Shown one piece after another: positions 13,504 through 48,798 of a stretch of DNA of 64,000 nucleotides. A program made the translations under genes and the position numbers. Location of the stretch: the NCBI RefSeq assembly GCF_000365025.1, contig NZ_KB823012.1:310001-374000 (forward strand). Direction: 5' to 3'. The first letter of the stretch is position 1. Each line of letters starts with the position of its first letter. This stretch comes from Robiginitomaculum antarcticum DSM 21748 (GTDB lineage: Bacteria > Pseudomonadota > Alphaproteobacteria > Caulobacterales > Maricaulaceae). The notes under the pieces are model-generated. The model was not told the origin of the DNA. It did not search any database and saw nothing but the letters and a program-made list of their open reading frames with translations.

Positions 13504-16500
13504 ATGAAACGCACTCTCCTACTTGCCGCATCCGTTGTCGCAATCGCCGCACCATCACTGGCTCAAGAGCTTCCGCCGGCGACCGCCCTACCGGGTGAGT
13601 GCTACGCTCGGGTTATTGTTCCCGCACAATACGACTCTTCACAAACGCGCATCGTTAAGCAGCCCGAGTCTGTTTCATACCGTAAGATCCCCGCCCAATA
13701 TAAGACCGTGACCGAGCGCGTCGTTGTGCAGGAAGAAAGTTTTGAGCTTTCGACTGTTCCGGCCACTTATAAAAGTGTCACCGAGACTGTAATTGTTCAA
13801 GAGGCCTCTCAAGAAGTTGTCGTAACTCCCCCAGTTTACGGCACCGTTACAGAGACCGTAACAGTCCAGCCTGCGACCGTTGAGTATCAAACCGTCCCGG
13901 CTGTTTACGAAGATTATTCCGAGACTGTCGTTGTTCAGGAAGCGTCGACGTCACTCGTCGCCGTTCCGCCTGTATATGAGACAGTCACAGAGACCGTCAT
14001 TGCCGAAGAAGGCCGTACAGAACTTGTGACAATCCCCGCGACATTCGAAACTGTTGCTGAAACTGTCATCGTCACGCCCGCGACAAAAGAATATGTATCC
14101 GTCCCGGCTGTTTATGAAGATTACACCGAAAATGTCGTTGTCCAAGAGGCGGCGACGCAGCTTCGGACTATCCCGGCTGTATTTGAGACCGTAAGTGAAA
14201 ATGTTGTTGTCCAAGAGGCGGCAACTGAGCTGGTCACGATTCCGGCCGTATTTGAAACTGTGACTGAAACCGTTATCACGCAGCCTGCCGTTAAAGAGCT
14301 TGTCACTATTCCGGCAACTTTCGAAACTGTTTCGGAAACCGTTGTTGTAACGCCTGCATCCGCTGAGTATGTATCTGTCCCGGCTGTATATGAGACCGTA
14401 AGCGAAAACGTTGTTGTCCAAGAAGCTTCTTCAGAGCTTGTTACTGCTCCGGCTGTCTTTGAAACCGTAACCGAAACTGTCGTTGTGCAAGAAGCGTCCA
14501 CAGAACTTGTGACTATTCCTGCTGTCTTCGGCGAAGTCACTGAAACCGTTATTGCTCAGGCCGCCTCCAGCGAAATGGTCACAATTCCGGCGACGTTTAA
14601 AACCGTGTCCGAAACGATCGTTGTCCAGCCTGCGACTGTTGAATATGTATCCGTTCCGGCCGTCTATGAAGACTACGCCGAAAATGTGGTTGTGCAGCAA
14701 GCGTCGACCGAACTGGTCTCGCTCCCGCCTGTCTTCGAGACCGTATCCGAAACTGTTGTTGTCCAGCCTGCCGGCGTTGATTATGCAACCGTTCCTGCCG
14801 TGTTCGAAGATTACGCCGAAATTGTTGTCGTCCAGCCTGCGACGACAGAGCTTGTCTCCGTCCCCGCGACGTTTGAGACTGTTTCGGAAACTGTTGTTGT
14901 TCAGCCTGCAAGCGCCGACTATGTAACTGTTCCTGCGGTATATGAAACACGCACAGACGCGATCGTCGTGCAAGAAGCGTCAACCGAACTGGTTGCTGTT
15001 CCTGCCGTATTTGAAACTGTATCTGAAACGATCGTGGTTCAGCCCGCTTCCGTAGACTATGTCACGCTTCCGGCTGTCTTTGAGACTGTTGAAGAGGCTG
15101 TCATCGTTCAGGCGGCGTCAACCGAGCTTATCACCATCCCCGCAACATTCGAAACAGTGTCTGAGACAATTGTTGTTCAGCCTGCGACTGTGGAATATGC
15201 AACTGTGCCGGCTGTTTTTGAGACGGTTACCGAGAATATCGTTGTTCAGGCCGCGTCTACCGAGCTTATCACTATTCCGGCGACATTCGAAACTGCATCT
15301 GAAACCGTTGTGGTTCAGCCCGCCTCTGTACAATATGTTTCTGTGCCGGCTGTCTATGAGACAGTTGAAGAGGCTGTTGTTGTTCAAGAAGCGTCTACAG
15401 AACTTCTCGCCATTCCGCCGGTTTATGAAACCGTTACAGAAACCGTTATCGTAACGCCGGCCACTGTCGAATATATCGCCGTCCCGGCCGTATATGAGAC
15501 TATTCAAGAGCCTGTGATTGTTCAGGAAGCCTCATCAGAGCTGGTCACAATTCCCGCGACATTTGAGACGGTGACTGAAACTGTCGTCGTTACGCCTGCG
15601 ACCCGCGAATATGTATCCGTACCTGCAGTCTATGAAGACTACAATGAGACTGTGCTTGTGCAGCAAGCGTCAACTGAGCTTGTTTCCGTTCCGGCCACGT
15701 TCAAAAACGTCACTGAGACGATCGTGGTTCAGCCCGCGACGACTGAGTATGACACTGTTCCCGCTGTGTTTGAAACCGTCGAGCAACCTATCGTGGTTCA
15801 AGCCGCGTCTTCCGAGCTTATCAGCATCCCCGCAACATTTGAGACGGTGACTGAAACTATTGTTGTTCAGCCTGCGACAACCGAATATGTATCTGTTCCT
15901 GCCGTCTATGAAGCGGTTGAGCAGCCTATCATTGTTCAAGCCGCATCCAGCGAGCTTGTCACCATTCCGGCCGTATTTGAAACGGTAACCGAAACTATTG
16001 TTGTGACGCCTGCGACTGTTGAATATGTCGCTGTCCCGGCTGTTTATGAAGACTACGCCGAAACTGTTGTTGTTCAGCAGGCCTCAACCAATATGGTTGT
16101 TATCCCGCCTGTCTTTGAAACCGTGACCGAAACTGTTGTCGTTCAGCCTGCCACGGCTGAGTATGTTGCTGTTCCGGCCGTCTATGAAGATTACGCACAA
16201 ACGGTTGTTGTTCAGCCTGTGACCACCGAAGTGGTCGCGATTCCGGCCACATTTGAAACTGTATCCGAAACTGTTGTTGTCCAGCCTGCCGGCGTTGAAT
16301 ATGTCACCGTTCCGGCCGTATTTGAAACCGTATCTCAGCCTATTATTGTTCAGGAAGCGTCCAGCGAACTGATTAGTATTCCCGCGACATATAAGACTGT
16401 GTCTGAGACGGTCGTGGTTCAAGAAGCGTCCGCTGAGCTGATCTCAACACCGCCGGTCTATGAGACCGTTAGGGAGACAATGATTGTTCAGCCTGCGACG

Positions 16501-19500
16501 ACTGAGTTGGTTGCCGTACCTGCGACGTTCAAAAATGTTACTGAGACCATTATTGTGACGCCCGCGACTGCGGAATACGTATCTGTTCCTGCTGTATATG
16601 AAGATTACCAGGAGACCATAGTGGTCCAAGAGGCATCGACTGAGCTTGTTTCAGTCCCTGCTGTTTTTGAAACCGTTACTGAAGCTGTAATTGTGCAGGA
16701 AGCCTCGACAGAGCTGGTATCTGTCCCGGCCACTTATGAGACTGTAGCGCAGACTGTTATTGATCGTCCGGCGTCAACAGAGCTTGTCGCCATTCCCGCA
16801 ACATTCAAAGATGTCACAGAGACCATCGTCGTGCAGCCTGCCGGCGTTGAATATGTGTCTGTTCCCGCTGTTTACGAAGATTATTCCGAAACTATGGTTG
16901 TGCAGGAGGCTTCGACTGAATTGGTTGCTGTTCCTGCGACATACCGCACCGTGACCGAAACTGTCGTCATGCAGGAGGCCTCCACAGAGCTGGTCACTGT
17001 TCCGGCTGTATTTGATACTGTCACAGAAACGGTCATCGTTCAGCCTGCGACCACAGAATATGTAACTGTACCCGCCAAGTTCCGTACAGAGCAGCAGAAT
17101 TATGTTACCGCTGAAGCGACTGACCCGATGGTTATTATTCCGGCCACATACCGCAATGTGACGCAGACGATTGTTACAGAAGAAGAGTCGACGCAGCTTC
17201 GCGCCATTGCAGCAACATACCGCAATGTGACTGAAACTGTGGTCGTGAAAGCGGCCTCTACGGATGTCGAAATCATTCCGGCTGTCTACGAGACCCGCAC
17301 CGATCAGGTTCTTGTCGAGCCGGCCCGCATTGTATGGAAGCCTGCGACGCAAGCTATGCAGAGCGCCGGTGTCAGTGCGAATAACCAAGGCGATGACGGT
17401 TTGGTCAATTACGATCTTCAGCCCCAGAAATTTACAGTCTTTAACGGCGTAAACGAAATTGTTGTCGAATCAGACGCAACCGTCGTGGATAATACCGGCG
17501 AAATTCTCTGCCGCGTTGAAATTCCGGCCCAGTTCAAAACCATTACGAAGCGCGTTATTAAAACGCCTGCCCGTGTCGTTGAGCGCACAATTCCGGCTGT
17601 CACGCAGCAAGTGACTCGACGGGTTGTTGACCGCGCCGCGTCTACGCAGGAAATCAAAATACCTGCTAAAACCGAAACAATCACGCGCCGCGTTGTTGAT
17701 CGCCAAGTCCGGACAATGAAATTGTCTGAAGCCCGTCGTCTGAACCTTCTGCCAAGTGCGCGGTGGCCCGGTGGGGACGCTGTTGTTGACGCAAGCGGAA
17801 ATGTCCGCTTCCCGAGCGGTATTGTCGGTAACCAAACCATGGGAACTGTTGCGACCCGCGTTGTTGATGAACCGGCCCGTGTCGTTGAGCGCCAAATCCC
17901 TGCCGTGACCAAACAGGTTACGCGCCGCGTCGTGAAAACGCCGGCCCGTGTTGTTGAGCGCGCTATTCCTGCGCAGACGCAGGCCGTTACGCGCCGCGTT
18001 GTGGCAACGCCTGCAACGACGCAAGAGCGCAGCATTCCGGCTGTTACGAAAGTTGAAGCCCGCCGCCGCATCAAAACGCCGTCCCGCACTGTAGAACGCC
18101 CAATTCCGGCCGTGACCAAACAGGTTACCCGCCGCGTTGTGGACCGTCCTGCCAGCACAGCTGAACGTGCTGTCCCGGCTGTGTCCAAGCAAGTCACCCG
18201 GCGCGTCGTGAAAACGCCGGCGCGGACTGTTGAGCGGGCTATCCCTGCGAAAACAGCGACTGTGACACGCCGCGTTGTGAAAACACCGGCCCGCACGGTT
18301 GAGCGCGCGATCCCGGCTGTAACTAAAGTCGAAGCGCGCCGCCGCATCGCAACGCCGGCCCGCACGGCTGAGCGCACAATTCCGGCTGTGACCGCTCAGG
18401 TCACCCGCCGCGTCGTTGATGTTCCGGCCCGCACAGTTGAACGCGCCATTCCGGCTGTGACGAAAGTCCAGACCCGCCGCGTTGTCAAAACACCTGCCCG
18501 CGTTTCCGAACGGTCCATTCCGGCTGTGACCAAAGTTGTCACCCGCCGCGTTGTTGATCGCCCTGCATCTACGCAAGAGCGTTCAATCCCGGCCGTGACC
18601 AAAGTGGAAACACGCCGCGTTGTTAAAACGCCGGCACGCACGGTTGAACGCGCTATACCGGCTGTGACGAAAGTCGTTACCCGCCGCGTCGTCAAAACGC
18701 CGGCTCGGACGGCTGAGCGCACAATTGCCGCAGTCACGCGTCAGGAAACTCTGCGCCGCGTCAAAACGCCGGCCCGCACAGTTGAACGCGCGGTCCCGGC
18801 TGTGACCAAGCAAATTACCCGCCGCGTTGTTAAAACGCCGGGTTCAAGCCGTACGCAGGCTGTTCCGGCTGTTACCAAAGTGGAATCGCGCCGCCGTATC
18901 GCCACGCCGGCCCGCACGGCTGAACGGACGATCCCGGCTGTCACAAAACAGATCACCCGCCGCGTCGTGAAGACGCCGGCCCGTGTGACTGAGCGCGCTA
19001 TCCCGGCTGTCAGTAAGATGGAAACCCGCCGCGTTGTGAAGACGCCGGCGCGCACCGTTGAACGCACTGTTCCGGCGGTAACTGCGACTGTGACCCGCCG
19101 CGTTGTCAAAACACCGGCGAGAGTGACTGAGCGTGCTATCCCGGCTATCAGCAAAATGGAAACGCGCCGCGTTGTCAAAACGCCGGCCCGCACGGCTGAA
19201 CGCACTGTTCCGGCTGTGACCAAAGTGGTCACCCGCCGCGTTGTCGATGTTCCGGCCCGCACTGTAGAGCGCGCAGTCCCCGCGATTACGAAAGTGGAAG
19301 CGCGCCGCCGTATTGCTACGCCGGCCCGCACAGCTGAGCGTACAATCCCGGCGGTAACCGCCCAAGTGACCCGCCGCGTTGTCAAAACGCCGGCCCGCGT
19401 CACTGAACGCGCCATTCCGGCCGTGACAAAAATGCAGACCCGCCGCGTGATCAAAACGCCGGCGAGTACGCGTGAGCGCATGATACCGGCTATAACCGCT

Positions 19501-21975
19501 CAAGTGAGCCGCCGTATCGTTAAGACACCGGCCAGCACTCGTGAACGCGCTATTCCGGCTGTGATGAAAATGCAGACCCGCCGCGTGATCAAAACGCCGG
19601 CCCGTTCGGTTGAGCGCTCTGTTCCAGCTGTGACTAAAGTGGTCTCGCGCCGTATTGTGAAAACACCGGCCCGCGTCACTGAGCGCGCCATTCCGGCGGT
19701 TCTTCGTCCTGAAACACGCCGCGTTGTTAAAACGCCGGCCCGTACAGTTGAGCGCGCCGTTCCGGCAGTGACTAAAGTTGTCACCCGCCGCGTTGTGAAA
19801 ACACCGGCCCGTACAACGGAGCGCGCTATTCCAGTCGTTACGAAGATGCAGGCCCGCCGCGTTGTTAAAACACCGGCCCGCGTTTCTGAACGTGCTGTTC
19901 CGGCTGTGACTAAGGTTGTGTCGCGCCGCGTTGTTAAAACGCCGGCCCGCACAGTTGAGCGCGCTATTCCTGCTGTCATGGGTCAGGAAACGCGCCGCGT
20001 TATCAAGACTCCGGCCCGCACGGTTGAGCGTGCTGTCCCGGCTGTGACTAAGGTTGTGTCCCGCCAAGTCGTCAAAACGCCCGCCCGCACGGTCGAGCGT
20101 AGCGTACCGGCTGTAACCCGTACTGAAACACGCCGCCGCGTTGCCACTCCGGCCCGCACGGTCGAACGGGCTATTCCGGCTGTGACGAAAGTTGTGACCC
20201 GCCGCGTTGTGAAAACACCGGGACGCGTCACTGAGCGTGCCGTTCCGGCTGTTGTGAAACAGGAAACCCGCCGCCGTATCGCCACTCCGGCCCGCACGGT
20301 TGAACGCGCTGTACCTGCCGTTACGAAAGTTGTGACCCGCCGCGTTGTCGATACGCCGGCCCGCGTCACAGAACGTGCCATTCCAGCTGTTATGAAACAG
20401 GAAACACGCCGCGTCGTTAAGACACCGGCCCGCACGGTTGAACGTGCCATTCCGGCGCAAACTGCGACTGTGACCCGCCGCGTCGTCAAAACACCGGCCC
20501 GTGTCTCCGAGCGAACTATTCCGGCAGTGGTGAAGGCGCAAACACGCCGCGTCATAAAGACGCCGGCCCGCACAGTTGAACGCGCAGTACCGGCCGTTAC
20601 GAAAGTTGTGACCCGCCGTGTTGTTAAAACGCCGGCTCGCACAAGTGAACGGACGATCCCGGCGGTGACGAATCAAGTGACCCGCCGCGTTGTTAAAACG
20701 CCGGCCCGCGTCACTGAGCGCGCTATTCCGGCTGTTGTTCAGCAAGTGTCGCGTCAGGTTGTTAAAACACCGTCCCGTACAGTGGAGACAGCCGTGCCTG
20801 CTGTCATTCGCGCGGAAACACGCCGCCGCGTGGCCACACCGGCCCGTACTGTCGAACGTACGGTTCCTGCCGTCACGGCAACAGTGACCCGCCGCGTTGT
20901 CAAAACACCGGCACGCGTTTCGGAACGGACTATTCCTGCGAAAACAGCGACTGTAACCCGCCGCGTTGTGAAAACGCCGGCGTCGAGCCGCACGCAGACT
21001 GTTCCGGCTGTAACCAAAGTCGAGACGCGCCGCCGCATCAAAACGCCGTCGCGCACAGTTGAACGCGCTATTCCGGCTGTCACGAAACAGGTAACCCGCC
21101 GCGTCGTGAAAACGCCATCGCAGGAAAGCATCCGGACAATCCCGGCTGTAAGCCGTCAAGTGACCCGCCGCGTGGTTGACACTCCGGCCCGTCAACAGCG
21201 TGTGGTTATTCCCGCCCGCTATGACACAGTCACCGTTCAGCAGCTCGTTTCTGCTGCGCGCACTGAGGAAGTTGTCACTCCGCCCGTTTTCGAAACAATC
21301 GAGAAGCGTACAGAAACAGCACCTGAGCGCGCTGAATGGCGTCAGGTTCTGTGTGAAGCGAACGCCAATACCCGCGTTATCTCTGCCATCCAGCAGTCTC
21401 TGAGATCACAAGGCTTCTATACAGGCGCCGTTGATGGACAGCTTGGGCGAGATACTTACGCCGCTGTTAAACAGTTCCAGACGTCCCGTGGTCTATCCAC
21501 CGGCGGCCTGACACTGCGCACGGTTGATGCTCTGGGTGTTGATTGGCGCTCTATGGTAAGTGGCGGCATTAGTGCCCGCAATGCCACAAGTTCCTTCGGA
21601 GGCGGAGCTTCGGCTGCCGGAACACAAACCGTAACGGTTAGCGGAATCACATATGTGATAGTGACCAGCACACGCGAAGTTCGCACCGCGAACGGCGTAA
21701 TTGTTGGCCGCCTGACTGAGAGTGGTGATATCGTGACGACTGACGGCCAGGTTCTGGCCCGCGGTATTCGCATTGCAGGTGTTCCAGCTTCTACGACAAC
21801 AAACCGTCTTAACTGGACATTGAATGATAACACACTGGCCGCTGGGGGTCTGACCTTCCCGACAAATGGCACAGTTGTTAATGGTAACGGCGTTGTCATT
21901 GGCCGCGTCGCAGCGAACGGCAATATTATTGACGGTAATGGCCGGGTTATAGGACGCGTTACGCGCTCTAACTAG
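13504..21975 (+). CDS. Giant secreted 23-residue-repeat protein with peptidoglycan-binding domain
   Basis: About 2,823 residues. A signal peptide (MKRTLLLAASVVAIAAPSLA, cleavage after SLA likely) is followed by a Cys-containing entry module (GECYARVIVPAQY, residues 31-43). Block A is 53 exact 23-residue repeats (60-1278; VTVPAVFETVTETVVVQEASTEL-like, acidic). A linker with a second Cys module (LCRVEIPAQF) follows. Then come two repeats, a 56-residue insert, and block B of 50 repeats (1464-2613; AIPAVTKVVTRRVVKTPARTVER-like, basic). A peptidoglycan-binding-1 domain follows (about 2620-2682; IQQSLRSQGFYTGAVDGQLG). A C-terminal region ends in three VIGR/VIVGR motifs. The start at 13504 was chosen because it begins the signal peptide; an in-frame ATG at 13447 would hide it. 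Short relatives with a few such repeats exist in Proteobacteria as periplasmic proteins. The function is unknown; a cell-envelope anchored fibre is an inference. Confidence 0.9.
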   Translation: MKRTLLLAASVVAIAAPSLAQELPPATALPGECYARVIVPAQYDSSQTRIVKQPESVSYRKIPAQYKTVTERVVVQEESFELSTVPATYKSVTETVIVQEASQEVVVTPPVYGTVTETVTVQPATVEYQTVPAVYEDYSETVVVQEASTSLVAVPPVYETVTETVIAEEGRTELVTIPATFETVAETVIVTPATKEYVSVPAVYEDYTENVVVQEAATQLRTIPAVFETVSENVVVQEAATELVTIPAVFETVTETVITQPAVKELVTIPATFETVSETVVVTPASAEYVSVPAVYETVSENVVVQEASSELVTAPAVFETVTETVVVQEASTELVTIPAVFGEVTETVIAQAASSEMVTIPATFKTVSETIVVQPATVEYVSVPAVYEDYAENVVVQQASTELVSLPPVFETVSETVVVQPAGVDYATVPAVFEDYAEIVVVQPATTELVSVPATFETVSETVVVQPASADYVTVPAVYETRTDAIVVQEASTELVAVPAVFETVSETIVVQPASVDYVTLPAVFETVEEAVIVQAASTELITIPATFETVSETIVVQPATVEYATVPAVFETVTENIVVQAASTELITIPATFETASETVVVQPASVQYVSVPAVYETVEEAVVVQEASTELLAIPPVYETVTETVIVTPATVEYIAVPAVYETIQEPVIVQEASSELVTIPATFETVTETVVVTPATREYVSVPAVYEDYNETVLVQQASTELVSVPATFKNVTETIVVQPATTEYDTVPAVFETVEQPIVVQAASSELISIPATFETVTETIVVQPATTEYVSVPAVYEAVEQPIIVQAASSELVTIPAVFETVTETIVVTPATVEYVAVPAVYEDYAETVVVQQASTNMVVIPPVFETVTETVVVQPATAEYVAVPAVYEDYAQTVVVQPVTTEVVAIPATFETVSETVVVQPAGVEYVTVPAVFETVSQPIIVQEASSELISIPATYKTVSETVVVQEASAELISTPPVYETVRETMIVQPATTELVAVPATFKNVTETIIVTPATAEYVSVPAVYEDYQETIVVQEASTELVSVPAVFETVTEAVIVQEASTELVSVPATYETVAQTVIDRPASTELVAIPATFKDVTETIVVQPAGVEYVSVPAVYEDYSETMVVQEASTELVAVPATYRTVTETVVMQEASTELVTVPAVFDTVTETVIVQPATTEYVTVPAKFRTEQQNYVTAEATDPMVIIPATYRNVTQTIVTEEESTQLRAIAATYRNVTETVVVKAASTDVEIIPAVYETRTDQVLVEPARIVWKPATQAMQSAGVSANNQGDDGLVNYDLQPQKFTVFNGVNEIVVESDATVVDNTGEILCRVEIPAQFKTITKRVIKTPARVVERTIPAVTQQVTRRVVDRAASTQEIKIPAKTETITRRVVDRQVRTMKLSEARRLNLLPSARWPGGDAVVDASGNVRFPSGIVGNQTMGTVATRVVDEPARVVERQIPAVTKQVTRRVVKTPARVVERAIPAQTQAVTRRVVATPATTQERSIPAVTKVEARRRIKTPSRTVERPIPAVTKQVTRRVVDRPASTAERAVPAVSKQVTRRVVKTPARTVERAIPAKTATVTRRVVKTPARTVERAIPAVTKVEARRRIATPARTAERTIPAVTAQVTRRVVDVPARTVERAIPAVTKVQTRRVVKTPARVSERSIPAVTKVVTRRVVDRPASTQERSIPAVTKVETRRVVKTPARTVERAIPAVTKVVTRRVVKTPARTAERTIAAVTRQETLRRVKTPARTVERAVPAVTKQITRRVVKTPGSSRTQAVPAVTKVESRRRIATPARTAERTIPAVTKQITRRVVKTPARVTERAIPAVSKMETRRVVKTPARTVERTVPAVTATVTRRVVKTPARVTERAIPAISKMETRRVVKTPARTAERTVPAVTKVVTRRVVDVPARTVERAVPAITKVEARRRIATPARTAERTIPAVTAQVTRRVVKTPARVTERAIPAVTKMQTRRVIKTPASTRERMIPAITAQVSRRIVKTPASTRERAIPAVMKMQTRRVIKTPARSVERSVPAVTKVVSRRIVKTPARVTERAIPAVLRPETRRVVKTPARTVERAVPAVTKVVTRRVVKTPARTTERAIPVVTKMQARRVVKTPARVSERAVPAVTKVVSRRVVKTPARTVERAIPAVMGQETRRVIKTPARTVERAVPAVTKVVSRQVVKTPARTVERSVPAVTRTETRRRVATPARTVERAIPAVTKVVTRRVVKTPGRVTERAVPAVVKQETRRRIATPARTVERAVPAVTKVVTRRVVDTPARVTERAIPAVMKQETRRVVKTPARTVERAIPAQTATVTRRVVKTPARVSERTIPAVVKAQTRRVIKTPARTVERAVPAVTKVVTRRVVKTPARTSERTIPAVTNQVTRRVVKTPARVTERAIPAVVQQVSRQVVKTPSRTVETAVPAVIRAETRRRVATPARTVERTVPAVTATVTRRVVKTPARVSERTIPAKTATVTRRVVKTPASSRTQTVPAVTKVETRRRIKTPSRTVERAIPAVTKQVTRRVVKTPSQESIRTIPAVSRQVTRRVVDTPARQQRVVIPARYDTVTVQQLVSAARTEEVVTPPVFETIEKRTETAPERAEWRQVLCEANANTRVISAIQQSLRSQGFYTGAVDGQLGRDTYAAVKQFQTSRGLSTGGLTLRTVDALGVDWRSMVSGGISARNATSSFGGGASAAGTQTVTVSGITYVIVTSTREVRTANGVIVGRLTESGDIVTTDGQVLARGIRIAGVPASTTTNRLNWTLNDNTLAAGGLTFPTNGTVVNGNGVVIGRVAANGNIIDGNGRVIGRVTRSN
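13681..17337 (+). repeat. Repeat block A: 53 tandem 69-bp (23-residue) units, acidic
   Basis: Counting by hand from R60 gives exactly 53 units with no length change. The pattern is x-x-(I/V)-P-A-(V/T)-(F/Y)-E-T-V-(T/S)-E-T-(V/I)-V-V-Q-(E/P)-A-S/T-x-E-(L/Y). Units 14-39 alternate almost strictly between ...EY (or DY/QY) and ...EL (or M/V) endings, giving a 46-residue super-repeat. A typical unit carries three or four acidic and no basic residues. Confidence 0.95.
17587..21342 (+). repeat. Repeat block B: 52 tandem 69-bp units, basic, with one insertion
   Basis: Two units (17587-17724) are followed by a 168-bp insertion (17725-17892). Then come exactly 50 further units (17893-21342), all 23 residues, of the form A-(I/V)-P-A-V-T-K-x-x-T-R-R-V-V-K-T-P-A-R-T-V-E-R. 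From about unit 6 to 40 the residues before RR alternate (E/Q-T/A versus V/I-T/S), again a two-unit period. Typical units carry five or six basic residues and one acidic residue. The last two units drift back toward the block A style (VTPPVFETIEKR). Confidence 0.95.
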
Positions 21976-44737: not shown

Positions 44738-45082
44738 TTATACGGACGGCAGCGCGTTATCAGACGGGAATTTGCGTGCAGGATCGGCCAGTATATCCGG
44801 CGTCAATGTATCGCTCAGATCCGCCCATTTTGGATTGAGCAGCTTGATGCGTTTAATCACCTGGGAGCGGTTCCATGTCAGCATATCGGTTTGGCGGTTA
44901 AACGCGCTGCCCAGATCGGGATGGGCTTCGAACCAGACCAGCATTTTGCACGCCATATGTTTAGGGTTGAGATCATCAACCTTGCCGGCCTTGTGCGCGG
45001 CTATAATGGCAGGCAGGTCATCGGCATGACCGAAATACAGTGTGCCCTTGGGGCGGTTGGTCAGAATATAGGTGTAAAACAT
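44738..45082 (-). CDS. Degenerate GIY-YIG domain protein
   Basis: About 114 residues beginning MFYTYILTNRPKGTLYFGHA. This is a GIY-YIG N terminus with YTYIL for GIY and YFG for YIG. The conserved Arg of the family (DLxxRxxxH) is absent (DLPAIIAAHKAG), and the conserved catalytic Glu segment (REKxLKxW in relatives) reads NRQTDMLTW, so Glu is missing. The C-terminal NPKWADLSDTL (NPxWxDL) is intact. It is therefore probably inactive as a nuclease, or has a changed activity. A longer reading (start 45133) would begin in the T-tract of the csp terminator, so the internal start is preferred. Confidence 0.7.
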   Translation of the reverse strand: MFYTYILTNRPKGTLYFGHADDLPAIIAAHKAGKVDDLNPKHMACKMLVWFEAHPDLGSAFNRQTDMLTWNRSQVIKRIKLLNPKWADLSDTLTPDILADPARKFPSDNALPSV

Positions 45083-45130
45083 AGCGGCGTGTAAATCACT
45101 TTCATCATAATAGACAGTCGGTTGTTCTAA

Positions 45131-45167
45131 CAAAAAACGCGCCGCAATCCAAAGATTGCGGCGCGTT
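45131..45167 (-). terminator. Intrinsic terminator of the cold-shock gene
   Basis: A perfect 14-bp stem AACGCGCCGCAATC / GATTGCGGCGCGTT with a CAAA loop; on the minus strand it is followed by a T-tract. It ends the cold-shock transcript 40 bp after the stop. Confidence 0.9.
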
Positions 45168-46169: not shown

Positions 46170-47171
46170 ATGACTATTCCTTTTTCAATTCTCGATCTCG
46201 CCCGCGTCACTGAGGGCCACACAATTGCGCAAAGTTTCGACGATTGCGTCAGTACGGCGCAAAAGGCCGAGCAGTTGGGCTATAAACGCGTCTGGTATGC
46301 CGAGCATCATAATATGGTCAGCGTAGCCAGCTCGGCCACCTCTGTGCTCATCGCCCATATTGCGACGCAGACAAAAACCATACGCGTCGGCTCCGGCGGC
46401 GTCATGCTCCCCAATCATTCGCCGCTGACCATTGCCGAGCAATTCGGCACGCTCGCCACATTACATCCCGGGCGGATTGATCTGGGGCTGGGCCGCGCGC
46501 CGGGCGGAGACCGCAATGTCATTCGCGCCTTGCGCAAAGATGCGCAGAAGGCGGCCAATCGATTTCCGCAGGATGTCATGGAGCTTTTATCTTATCTTGA
46601 CGAGCCCGGCGGACAGCTGAATGACACAGGCGTGCGCGCCATTCCTGGCGAGGGCACGCAAGTGCCGGTCTGGATCCTCGGCTCAAGCCTGTTTGGCGCG
46701 CAGCTCGCCGCCCATTTGGGACTGCCTTACGCTTTTGCTTCGCATTTCGCGCCGCAACATGTTTTGGAGGCGGCGCAGACTTATCGCCGGGATTTCAAGC
46801 CGTCCAAATATTTGGATAAGCCCTATTTCATGATGGCGTGTAATGTCTTTGCGGCGGACACCGAAGAGGAGGCGCAGTTTCATTTCACAACATTGCTGCA
46901 GGCCTTTATCGGTATTATCACAAACCAGCGCGGCCTTATTCCTGCTCCCGTCGAGAATTTTGAGGTGCCGGCGGAGCTCGGCCCGCATCTGGAGAGCATG
47001 TTGCAATGCAGCGCGGTCGGAACGGCTGAGCAGGTCGCGGAGCAATTGTCGCAGTTTCAGCGCGAACTTTCCCCTGATGAATATATTATCTCCATGCCGT
47101 TTTACGATCAAGCCGCACGGCTAAAGTCGATGGAGCTAACCATGGGAATACGCGAAACGCTAGGGGCTTAA
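46170..47171 (+). CDS. Luciferase-like (LLM) flavin-dependent oxidoreductase
   Basis: A 333-residue bacterial luciferase-family protein (MsnO8-like group): FSILDLARVTEGHTIAQSFDD, YAEHHNMVSVASSATSVLIA, RVGSGGVMLPNHSPLTIAEQFGTLATLHPGRIDLGLGRAPG, and the middle ILGSSLFGAQLAAHLGLPYAFASHFAP. These enzymes use FMNH2 and O2 to oxidise small organic molecules or remove groups; the substrate is unknown. The stop overlaps the stop of the convergent secreted protein gene by 4 nt. No good Shine-Dalgarno is seen before the ATG. Confidence 0.9.
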   Translation: MTIPFSILDLARVTEGHTIAQSFDDCVSTAQKAEQLGYKRVWYAEHHNMVSVASSATSVLIAHIATQTKTIRVGSGGVMLPNHSPLTIAEQFGTLATLHPGRIDLGLGRAPGGDRNVIRALRKDAQKAANRFPQDVMELLSYLDEPGGQLNDTGVRAIPGEGTQVPVWILGSSLFGAQLAAHLGLPYAFASHFAPQHVLEAAQTYRRDFKPSKYLDKPYFMMACNVFAADTEEEAQFHFTTLLQAFIGIITNQRGLIPAPVENFEVPAELGPHLESMLQCSAVGTAEQVAEQLSQFQRELSPDEYIISMPFYDQAARLKSMELTMGIRETLGA

Positions 47172-47569
47172 GGGACAGTAAAGGATCCCGTCGTGGTCTG
47201 ACCTCCGCTGCCTTCGACCGTGAAGTCAGCGGTCATACCGGATGGATCGCCATGAACTGTACGCGCATAGGTCGCCTTGCCCAAATTGCCTGTCGTCATT
47301 AAGCGGGATTTCCCCCACCAGAAGCTGGCTTCGATTTGCGCGCCTTTGACGGGTTTACCTTTACAGGTCACGCTCACATCAAACCGCACATGCCATTGGT
47401 TTCCCGATTTTGCCGTGCTCTTGCCCGCCGCCGTAACGACGGTATCTTCAACGGCGCAGTTTATCGCCGTGACCTTTATTGTGCTGCTCCCATCATCACA
47501 TTTCTGTATGAGCATGGGCACCGCTATGAGTGTCAAAATCAGTGCTTTGGACGCTATGAAAACAGCCAT
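47168..47569 (-). CDS. Hypothetical exported protein
   Basis: A 133-residue protein with an N-terminal hydrophobic segment (FIASKALILTLIAVPMLI) that could be a signal peptide, followed by QKCDDGSS, and a beta-rich domain. The domain reads KVTAINCAVEDTVVTAAG, VRFDVSVTCKGKPVKGAQIEASFWWGKS and GKATYARTV..., an immunoglobulin-like pattern reminiscent of carbohydrate-binding or adhesion domains. Three cysteines are present. I do not recognise a family. The gene is convergent with the LLM oxidoreductase and the two overlap by 4 nt at their stops. Confidence 0.6.
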   Translation of the reverse strand: MAVFIASKALILTLIAVPMLIQKCDDGSSTIKVTAINCAVEDTVVTAAGKSTAKSGNQWHVRFDVSVTCKGKPVKGAQIEASFWWGKSRLMTTGNLGKATYARTVHGDPSGMTADFTVEGSGGQTTTGSFTVP

Positions 47570-47702
47570 AATTCTCTCCCCAATAATTTATAGCATAGTC
47601 GTGCTATACCACATTTTACGTAATTTGTAAATTCCGGTGCGGGGAGGGGTGCTCCGGCCGCCCGGTCGAAAGACAAGGCGACTATGAAAAAGACAGAAGA
47701 GA

Positions 47703-47747
47703 CCTCATCCTGAGGCGACCCGCAGGGTCGGGACTCGAAGGGCGAGG
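47703..47747 (+). repeat. 45-bp palindromic element, copy 1
   Basis: CCTCATCCTGAGG, then a central hairpin CGACCC-GCA-GGGTCG, then GGACTCGAAGGGCGAGG. Ends immediately downstream of the GIY-YIG stop (23 bp gap). Orientation plus. Confidence 0.85.
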
Positions 47748-47770
47748 TTGGTCATTTTGAGAGTTGATAG

Positions 47771-48064
47771 TCAAGCCGGCCCGCGTTTTGACAGCTTTGG
47801 TAACGCCTCCCAATCTCCTCGAATTAAAGCTTCTTTCTTCTTGCGGCTCCAGCCTTTAATCTGTTGTTCAAAGGATATGGCAGGCTCTGCTTCTTCAAAA
47901 CACTCGGTCCAGACCAGTTCGACTGGTAAACGTTTGGCCGTATAGGATTTAGGATAAACCGCATTCTTATGCTCCCACAGCCGTCCGCGCATATCATCAC
48001 CGCGATGGCTGCCCGTGTAATAAGAGCCGTCAGAGCATTTCAAAATATAAACCCAGATGTTCAT
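47771..48064 (-). CDS. GIY-YIG nuclease, flanked by inverted palindromic elements
   Basis: A 97-residue single-domain GIY-YIG protein: MNIWVYILKCSDGSYYTG (GIY = VYI, YIG = YTG), the DMRGRLWEHKNA segment with the conserved Arg and His, and the SFEQQIKGWSRKKKEALI helix with the catalytic Glu. Related small proteins have been linked to DNA repair, but their role is unclear. The gene is bracketed by a 45-bp palindromic element in inverted orientation (47703-47747 and 48133-48177), suggesting the whole 475-bp unit moved together. The active-site residues appear intact, unlike the second GIY-YIG protein at 44738. Confidence 0.85.
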   Translation of the reverse strand: MNIWVYILKCSDGSYYTGSHRGDDMRGRLWEHKNAVYPKSYTAKRLPVELVWTECFEEAEPAISFEQQIKGWSRKKKEALIRGDWEALPKLSKRGPA

Positions 48065-48132
48065 GGGGTTTTATACCGCGCTGTTCGGTAGGTGACCAGA
48101 GGGTCAATAAAGTGATAAGCCAGCGCGCAACA

Positions 48133-48177
48133 CCTCGCCCTTCGAGTCCACGCGCTACGCGCGTCCTCAGGATGAGG
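48133..48177 (-). repeat. 45-bp palindromic element, copy 2 (inverted)
   Basis: Read on the minus strand: CCTCATCCTGAGG, central hairpin ACGCGC-GTA-GCGCGT, then GGACTCGAAGGGCGAGG. The outer 13 and 17 bp are identical to copy 1, while the centre differs but keeps a 6-bp stem and 3-nt loop. Lies 68 bp upstream of the GIY-YIG start. Confidence 0.85.
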
Positions 48178-48274
48178 TGTTGGGTGAGATTGGGGTGTTG
48201 GGGAGAGTTTAAGGTACCTTTGGACAGACTAAACCACCCTAACACTACCCCTATCATCTAAAATCAAAAGCAAG

Positions 48275-48321
48275 CCTCATCCTGAGGGCGCGCCTAAGGC
48301 GCGGGGACTCGAAGGACGAGG
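48275..48321 (+). repeat. 47-bp palindromic element, copy 3
   Basis: CCTCATCCTGAGG, centre containing CGCGCC-TAA-GGCGCG, then GGACTCGAAGGACGAGG (one change in the right end). Same orientation as copy 1. It sits between the GIY-YIG unit and the AT-rich hypothetical gene. Confidence 0.8.
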
Positions 48322-48339: not shown

Positions 48340-48798
48340 TTAATTCTCATCCAGCAAAGTGAAGCTGCACCCTATGCTTGGATATTCTAAATTATTGGAA
48401 ATTTTCATGCAGGCTTGAACGAACTCTTCTCCGACTACATCATTTTTCACATTGCTTTCTTTGTATTCTTTACGCCAAGTGTAATTTTTTGATAGATCAG
48501 ATTGCGCTTTTACACGTAATCCGAACTGGAAAATGACGCCAACATGATTGTAATATTGACAAATAGCGACGCCATACTCTTCGCTATATGGAAAATATTT
48601 TGAATGCGCTGTAACGGCTGTTATCGGAAATTGCCTTTGCACACGAGCTGCAGCGCCCTCTTGGTAAATTGGCCACTCTTGTGCAGCGCCGCTTTCAAAA
48701 TCAGTGCGGGCCAGATCACCATCCGGGCAATTGTAAGTCTCTGCGCTAGCGGCATGTGTAAGGACAAATAATGTTATTAAAATTACAACTATGCGCAT
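48340..48798 (-). CDS. Hypothetical secreted protein, AT-rich
   Basis: A 152-residue protein with signal peptide (MRIVVILITLFVLTHAASA, cleavage before ETYN). The mature protein has four cysteines (YNCPDG, VAICQYYN, QACMK, IGCSF) and many aromatic residues, suggesting a small disulphide-stabilised domain. I do not recognise a family. The codons are more AT-rich than those of the neighbouring genes, and the gene lies 18 bp from palindromic element copy 3, so recent acquisition is possible. It ends a minus-strand series with thiC upstream, 4 nt away from the thiC stop. Confidence 0.55.
   Translation of the reverse strand: MRIVVILITLFVLTHAASAETYNCPDGDLARTDFESGAAQEWPIYQEGAAARVQRQFPITAVTAHSKYFPYSEEYGVAICQYYNHVGVIFQFGLRVKAQSDLSKNYTWRKEYKESNVKNDVVGEEFVQACMKISNNLEYPSIGCSFTLLDEN

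Follow-up and report, generated by a model that had tools for sequence, protein, structure and literature searches.

Inverted copies of one palindrome bracket the gene for a small GIY-YIG nuclease in the 64-kb window analysed here (the whole stretch, G000:C2:310001-374000, from a host genome of 2.77 Mb whose place in the Alphaproteobacteria is judged from relatives). We favour the view, with a probability of roughly 0.6, that the unit at 47703-48177 represents a palindromic mobile element in its gene-carrying form, and that nuclease and palindromes together constitute a mobile unit working in the manner of the RAYT/REPIN system. Bacterial genomes commonly contain short palindromic repeats, and given that the same arrangement with the same hairpin core recurs in many relatives from other bacteria, this enzyme could be the partner so far missing for their spread. 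The evidence for this reading is that palindromes with a shared core bracket one clade of GIY-YIG genes, that their number follows the presence of the gene, that the cassette varies in site and presence between species of another genus, that the protein is under selection and that insertion junctions gather at the core.

A nuclease gene between inverted palindromes

Two small minus-strand genes (47168-47569 and 48340-48798) flank the cassette; for both, no Pfam match and no NCBIfam match over the cut-off was obtained. Its arms (47702-47748 and 48132-48178; 47 nt, 81% complementary) form the longest inverted pair among the 12 listed across the 64 kb of the window. A preliminary description had proposed both the bracketing by inverted copies and an intact active-site pattern; sequence and repeat search confirm the former, and the presence of Y6, Y16, G18, R28, H32 and E66 confirms the latter. 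The repeat search also found a third copy that this description did not contain (Table 1).

Table 1. Features of the cassette region, in window coordinates
Feature	Position	Strand	Basis
Palindrome copy 1, left bracket, CCTCATCCTGAGG-[hairpin]-CTCGAAGGGCGAGG	47703-47747	+	sequence and repeat search
GIY-YIG nuclease gene, 97 aa	47771-48064	-	ORF, Pfam, active-site residues
Palindrome copy 2, right bracket, inverted relative to copy 1	48133-48177	-	sequence and repeat search
Palindrome copy 3, beyond the cassette, forming a divergent pair with copy 2	48275-48321	+	sequence and repeat search

The active-site residues of the GIY-YIG superfamily are Tyr, Tyr, Arg and Glu, and the 97-aa protein combines these residues with the Pfam GIY-YIG domain (PF01541; E 9e-14, 52 bits against a cut-off of 22.6), its only Pfam match. 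Across 72 close sequences, its own included, Y6, G18, H32 and E66 occur in all 72 and Y16 and R28 in 71, this set being without L055 (same as P0001), L083, L092, L154, L084 and L054. In the copy from Variovorax paradoxus (L044:3001-3261) the second active-site Tyr is replaced by His (YHAG), the sole such change among the 72. The predicted structure (mean pLDDT 85.6) best matches PDB entry 1zg2 (E 4.4e-6), followed by 1ywl (3.3e-3) and Slx1 (0.057). The UPF0213 proteins BH0048 (1zg2) and EF2693 (1ywl) are the nearest solved relatives by sequence and fold, with a likeness that covers the wider family only. Searches for defence systems and NCBIfam families gave no match to the protein; 11 records in a plasmid collection (best 56% identity, Methylobacterium) and 19 in a phage collection (best 44% identity) did match.

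The window copies of the palindrome agree in their outer arms and core, whereas the inner stem differs yet stays self-complementary (judged by eye). The pattern CCTGAG..TCGAAGG occurs three times in the window, against 0.01 expected, and none of 100 shuffles reached three. Genome-wide it has 13 matches against one for the reversed control; a stricter palindrome pattern has six against none, and TCATCCTGAGG has 14 against none for its reversed control, of which the match at C1:175205 lacks a surrounding palindrome, leaving 13 that are not necessarily the same set as the 13 of the first pattern. The genome-wide count suggested in the preliminary description therefore yields about 13 copies, largely in inverted pairs: three such pairs on C1, two on C3 and three copies at the cassette. 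The C1 pairs (L015, L017, L019) are dimers of about 115 bp with tails inward, lying within 3.3 kb (G000:C1:271822-275085), and the first two share CCAAACCCCG in their inner part.

Association of the palindromes with one nuclease clade

The set of close loci comprised 49 alpha-type loci, defined by genome searches at E<=1e-15 and including our own, and 27 named loci (24 from Betaproteobacteria, one from Methylophaga, one from Chloroflexi and one Pedobacter record). The 76 loci were collected from the 289 genomes of a class sample, 29 of them with a close-gene match (E<=1e-15), from a nearer sample of 41 genomes, from second copies in these genomes and from the named loci. Searching 300 bp on either side for TGAG..TCGAA with paired neighbours (both 300-bp flanks being present at 71 of the 76 loci), we found a core palindrome at 69 of them: on both sides at 46, on one side at 23 and on neither at seven. 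At least one was present at 42 of 49 alpha-type and at all 27 other loci, with both sides occupied at 29 and 17, respectively. Where both sides were occupied, the nearest elements formed inverted pairs in 37 cases and direct pairs in nine. Bracketing on both sides is thus not the rule without exception that the preliminary description had proposed to check for. The seven palindrome-free loci are all alpha-type (7/49) and include L085 and L088, which are two of the closest relatives, as well as L083, which lies at a contig end; they count against our reading.

Random placement of the palindromes relative to GIY-YIG genes, the outcome that the preliminary description had named as refuting its view, was not what we found: 69 of 76 close loci had a core palindrome within 300 bp and none of 20 distant GIY-YIG genes did, some of the latter (L098 among them) being cut by contig ends. 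A broken, bracketed gene of the close clade (L084), distant by E-value, was set aside from these 20. Without the stem filter the 20 distant loci together held one core match, and one of them (L171) contained four such palindromes elsewhere in its 3.3 kb. The other six GIY-YIG matches of the window's own genome lack such an element within 1.5 kb, and the palindrome link therefore concerns one clade and not GIY-YIG genes generally. The idea that any GIY-YIG gene attracts palindromes was rejected, since none of the 20 distant genes and none of the six others of the own genome has one within 300 bp. The association of the palindromes with this clade is not due to chance.

Because stem statistics are biased by the stem filter, the form of the element was assessed on unfiltered core matches, of which there were 225 near the 76 loci against a shuffle mean of 8.5. 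Their outer three pairs are Watson-Crick in 194, 192 and 185 cases, and pair 2 is C-G in 117 and G-C in 72. The outer pairs thus hold though their letters change, which indicates that the stem varies with compensation while the core is constant. Moreover, when each of 41 loci was compared with the one encoding the nearest protein in another genome, the palindrome class (inner closing pair plus length) was the same in 28, against a mean of 17.2 in shuffles, 1 of 2000 of which reached this value. In the 17 genomes behind the named loci (17 of the 27 loci were used), short-form counts range from 7 to 216 against 0 to 6 for the control, the weak cases being L028 (7 against 1) and L039 (14 against 5).

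At 17 of the 27 loci L028-L054, the GIY-YIG frame continues into a MeaB-like GTPase, giving one frame of 449-568 aa (L045 is cut by a contig end). Many of these frames pass through LRQAQPER- and VRPEPVEG-like stretches that resemble translated palindromes, and at four of the ten remaining loci a P-loop motif lies downstream and out of frame. Pfam MeaB (PF03308) was confirmed in both frames tested, L030 and L041; the others were recognised by motif.

Repeat number was related to gene presence in two samples; the 289-genome table was transcribed by hand and the nearer counts were tallied by eye. In the class sample, 26 of the 29 genomes that have the close gene contained at least one TCCTGAG..TCGAAGGA, as did 39 of the 260 that lack it; at least ten repeats were present in 15 of 29 against 5 of 260 (p 2e-13). 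Three close-gene genomes are devoid of repeats by this strict pattern, and two of the five repeat-rich genomes without the gene are over 90% complete (G105, G122). In the nearer sample of 41 genomes, at least ten copies of CCTGAG..TCGAAGG were found in 11 of 12 genomes with the gene and in 7 of 29 without; G183, G300, G315 and G318 (listed as 100% complete) and the congeners G290 (76%) and G291 (67%) are among these seven exceptions. The gene itself is patchy: outside the genus, 6 of 19 genomes of the same family have it, and none of five congeners does, some of these genomes being incomplete. All p-values serve as guides only, because the genomes are related and hence not independent.

Might a RAYT, an HUH transposase, move the palindromes while the GIY-YIG gene is a bystander? 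We regard this as highly improbable. A Y1_Tnp match is present in 58 of the 289 class-sample genomes, and at least ten repeats are indeed somewhat more frequent among them (8 of 58 against 12 of 231, p 0.04), but the difference fades at thresholds of at least four (p 0.12) and at least 20 repeats (p 0.35). Of the 50 genomes with a RAYT and no close GIY-YIG gene, two reach ten repeats and none reaches twenty, whereas among genomes without a RAYT-type match at least ten repeats occur in 9 of 21 with the close gene and in 3 of 210 without it. Furthermore, the window's own genome has no Y1_Tnp (RAYT-type, PF01797) match. The counts thus weaken the idea of a RAYT as the mover: repeat number tracks the GIY-YIG gene better than it tracks RAYTs, with the exceptions noted above.

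Cassette variation in another genus

The cassette at L058 recurs in the genus of G280, which belongs to another family of the same class and for which 41 genomes were searched. Nine copies were fetched, 84-93% identical to each other. Those of G280 and G349 share one site, with G351 C251 and G341 C215 within about 2 kb, and for the flanks of five copies (G351 C808, G357 C119, C502 and C236, and G353 C17) no match exists among the other copies, one flank being cut by a contig end in two of the five. Some of the assemblies are fragmented or in part contaminated (G351 has 1030 contigs and 7% contamination, G357 800 contigs), which speaks against our reading.

At two sites the cassette is present or absent depending on the species. 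At the L058 site, G351 and G357 carry a palindrome dimer only, whereas G333 and G353 lack such a palindrome and have other inverted repeats (by eye). At the L215 site, the cassette of G353 lies between dimers and G351 has one dimer within the same unique flanks; G358 has palindromes without the gene, and G333, G280 and G341 have none. G333 does not represent a base-exact empty site, because the whole intergenic stretch is missing there; G340 and G357 also touch this site and lie outside the comparison. What the preliminary description had called a small mobile cassette thus holds in so far as site and presence vary between species of another genus, and does not extend to movement of the window's own copy: no clean empty site was found in its own genus, and in the congener G289 a cold-shock-like gene (by eye) is the next ORF after thiC, a block larger than the cassette being missing. 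That the evidence for movement lies between species, and that repeats also occur without the gene, weighs against our reading.

In the same genus the element has longer ends, and its joins to older palindromes fall at the core. Of 22 extended-end contexts, 12 follow CTGAG and six follow CTCAG or CTTCAG of a truncated palindrome (by eye), with the qualification that the motif was picked after viewing these loci and that some contexts represent one site seen in more than one species. Two related genomes show other inverted repeats at the G280 cassette site (L206:2119-2272 and L207:1548-1712, by eye), one of them with the arm TGTCATCCCGAGC; this site therefore seems to collect several repeat families.

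Alternatively, the cassette may have moved passively, by homologous recombination between palindromes that were spread otherwise, with the protein serving an unrelated task. The additional 506 bp of G353 at the L215 site lie between repeats of a dimer of roughly 109 bp, which G351 has once; such recombination could also give rise to this layout, and the observation counts against our reading. Hitch-hiking is nevertheless improbable, given that the association is specific to one GIY-YIG clade, that the class of the palindrome follows the protein and that the flanks of five copies match no other copy.

The L215 copy has a stop in the YIG motif. Pairwise dN/dS among eight copies (28 pairs), including this one with its stop codon skipped, ranges from 0.08 to 0.21 with a median of 0.13; judged from these sequences, purifying selection acts on the cassette protein in the genus of G280. 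A study from 2025 (Nat Commun) reportedly describes a GIY-YIG family of site-specific single-stranded nucleases, Ssn, that acts on the genomic repeat NTS in Neisseria, and our 97-aa protein, a small single-domain GIY-YIG protein with a many-copy cognate palindromic repeat, shares these features of Ssn; it may be a member of the family. It is conceivable, by analogy, that the nuclease has a host function, in which single-stranded DNA that enters the cell or is exposed would be cut at the palindromes, tuning uptake and recombination. The repeats might then mark the host genome, and movement of the cassette might be a by-product of recombination between them. The likeness to Ssn/NTS, the purifying selection and the in-frame MeaB at 17 of the 27 non-alpha loci are in keeping with such a function, but the patchy occurrence of the gene in the own family, its several sites in one genus and the stop-bearing copy suit an element better than a fixed host gene, and we consider both the uptake role and the marking of the genome unlikely.

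A possible mechanism and its relation to known systems

How might a GIY-YIG protein mobilise palindromes? In the mobile-unit reading that we prefer, binding by the protein, cleavage of a single strand and movement driven by this cleavage are the steps that we infer; the single-stranded state and the cutting are suggested by the palindromic form, by what is reported of Ssn and by the junctions at the core. We envision a scenario whereby the palindrome folds as a hairpin in single-stranded DNA, with a variable paired stem and a constant asymmetric core that has TGAG and TCGAA on opposite sides. This core would be recognised and cut by the cassette-encoded protein. Cuts at two inverted copies would release the complete cassette or else a dimer of two inverted palindromes that lacks the gene, and the freed unit would re-join at another palindrome or at an intergenic site and thus spread. 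Gene-less dimers would then represent a non-autonomous form that uses the nuclease in trans, and the cassette the smallest unit able to hold the nuclease. The Burkholderiales-type gene, mostly found beside meaB, fits such a scheme poorly, since this is unlike a freely moving element. A more far-reaching proposal, which we put forward tentatively and at somewhat less than even odds, is that of a self-moving GIY-YIG REP system that nicks TGAG/TCGAA hairpins, mobilises cassettes and gene-less dimers, and provides the dedicated enzyme which palindromic repeats of a large class, found in Alphaproteobacteria, Betaproteobacteria and Bacteroidetes, were thought to lack.

Mobility of the gene together with its repeats is not known to be part of the description of Ssn. 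Even so, given Ssn and NTS, the idea of a GIY-YIG protein acting on a genomic repeat is less isolated than the preliminary description had supposed. Among the literature matches listed, which cover part of the literature, none joins GIY-YIG to these palindromes, and PMC10319059 holds nothing on Ssn for the terms searched.

The closest parallel in arrangement is that of RAYT/TnpA-REP and REPINs, for which PMC3116915 describes inverted REPs flanking the gene, dispersed gene-less doublets and a patchy distribution; inverted flanking repeats, dispersed doublets and patchiness are likewise present here. RAYTs, however, carry an HUH/Y1 nuclease, and according to the same paper they are single-copy and apparently incapable of self-mobilization, unlike the present cassette with its GIY-YIG fold and its several sites. 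An HUH/Y1 transposase (PF01797) is found neither in the own genome nor in the protein, and the three window copies end in CCTC and GAGG, without the GTAG end of RAYT elements. Owing to the different nuclease fold and the absent GTAG end, the cassette is not a member of the RAYT/REPIN group.

A survey from 2013 (Di Nocera, PMC3733652) sorts most REPs into two super-families. The CGTC-tagged REPs described there are mainly alphaproteobacterial, apparently without a dedicated transposase and mostly arranged as head-to-head dimers, with an end motif that is sometimes CCTC; they are characterised by an unpaired CGTC (TGTC/CCTC) end, an AT stem start, a loop of 4-5 nt and a CCA tail. The window palindromes have the CCTC and the AT, lack the CCA tail and the short loop, and possess a longer inner hairpin, so that they resemble the CGTC class in part. 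If the GIY-YIG protein does move DNA, it would offer a route of REP dispersal without an HUH transposase. A repeat-flanked nuclease clade with one constant core across several phyla supplies a candidate enzyme and a candidate cut site, and thereby makes the question testable.

Two further features of the window deserve mention. A small ORF at 44738-45133 on the minus strand contains YTYILTNRPKGTLYFGHADD and appears GIY-YIG-like by eye; its stretch 44741-45079 gave no Pfam or NCBIfam match, and the ORF is possibly decayed. In addition, a 69-bp repeat array of 45 copies in two families, with a 138-bp step apparent as well, extends over about 13792-21400 and probably codes for a 23-residue protein repeat, because the repeat length is a multiple of three.
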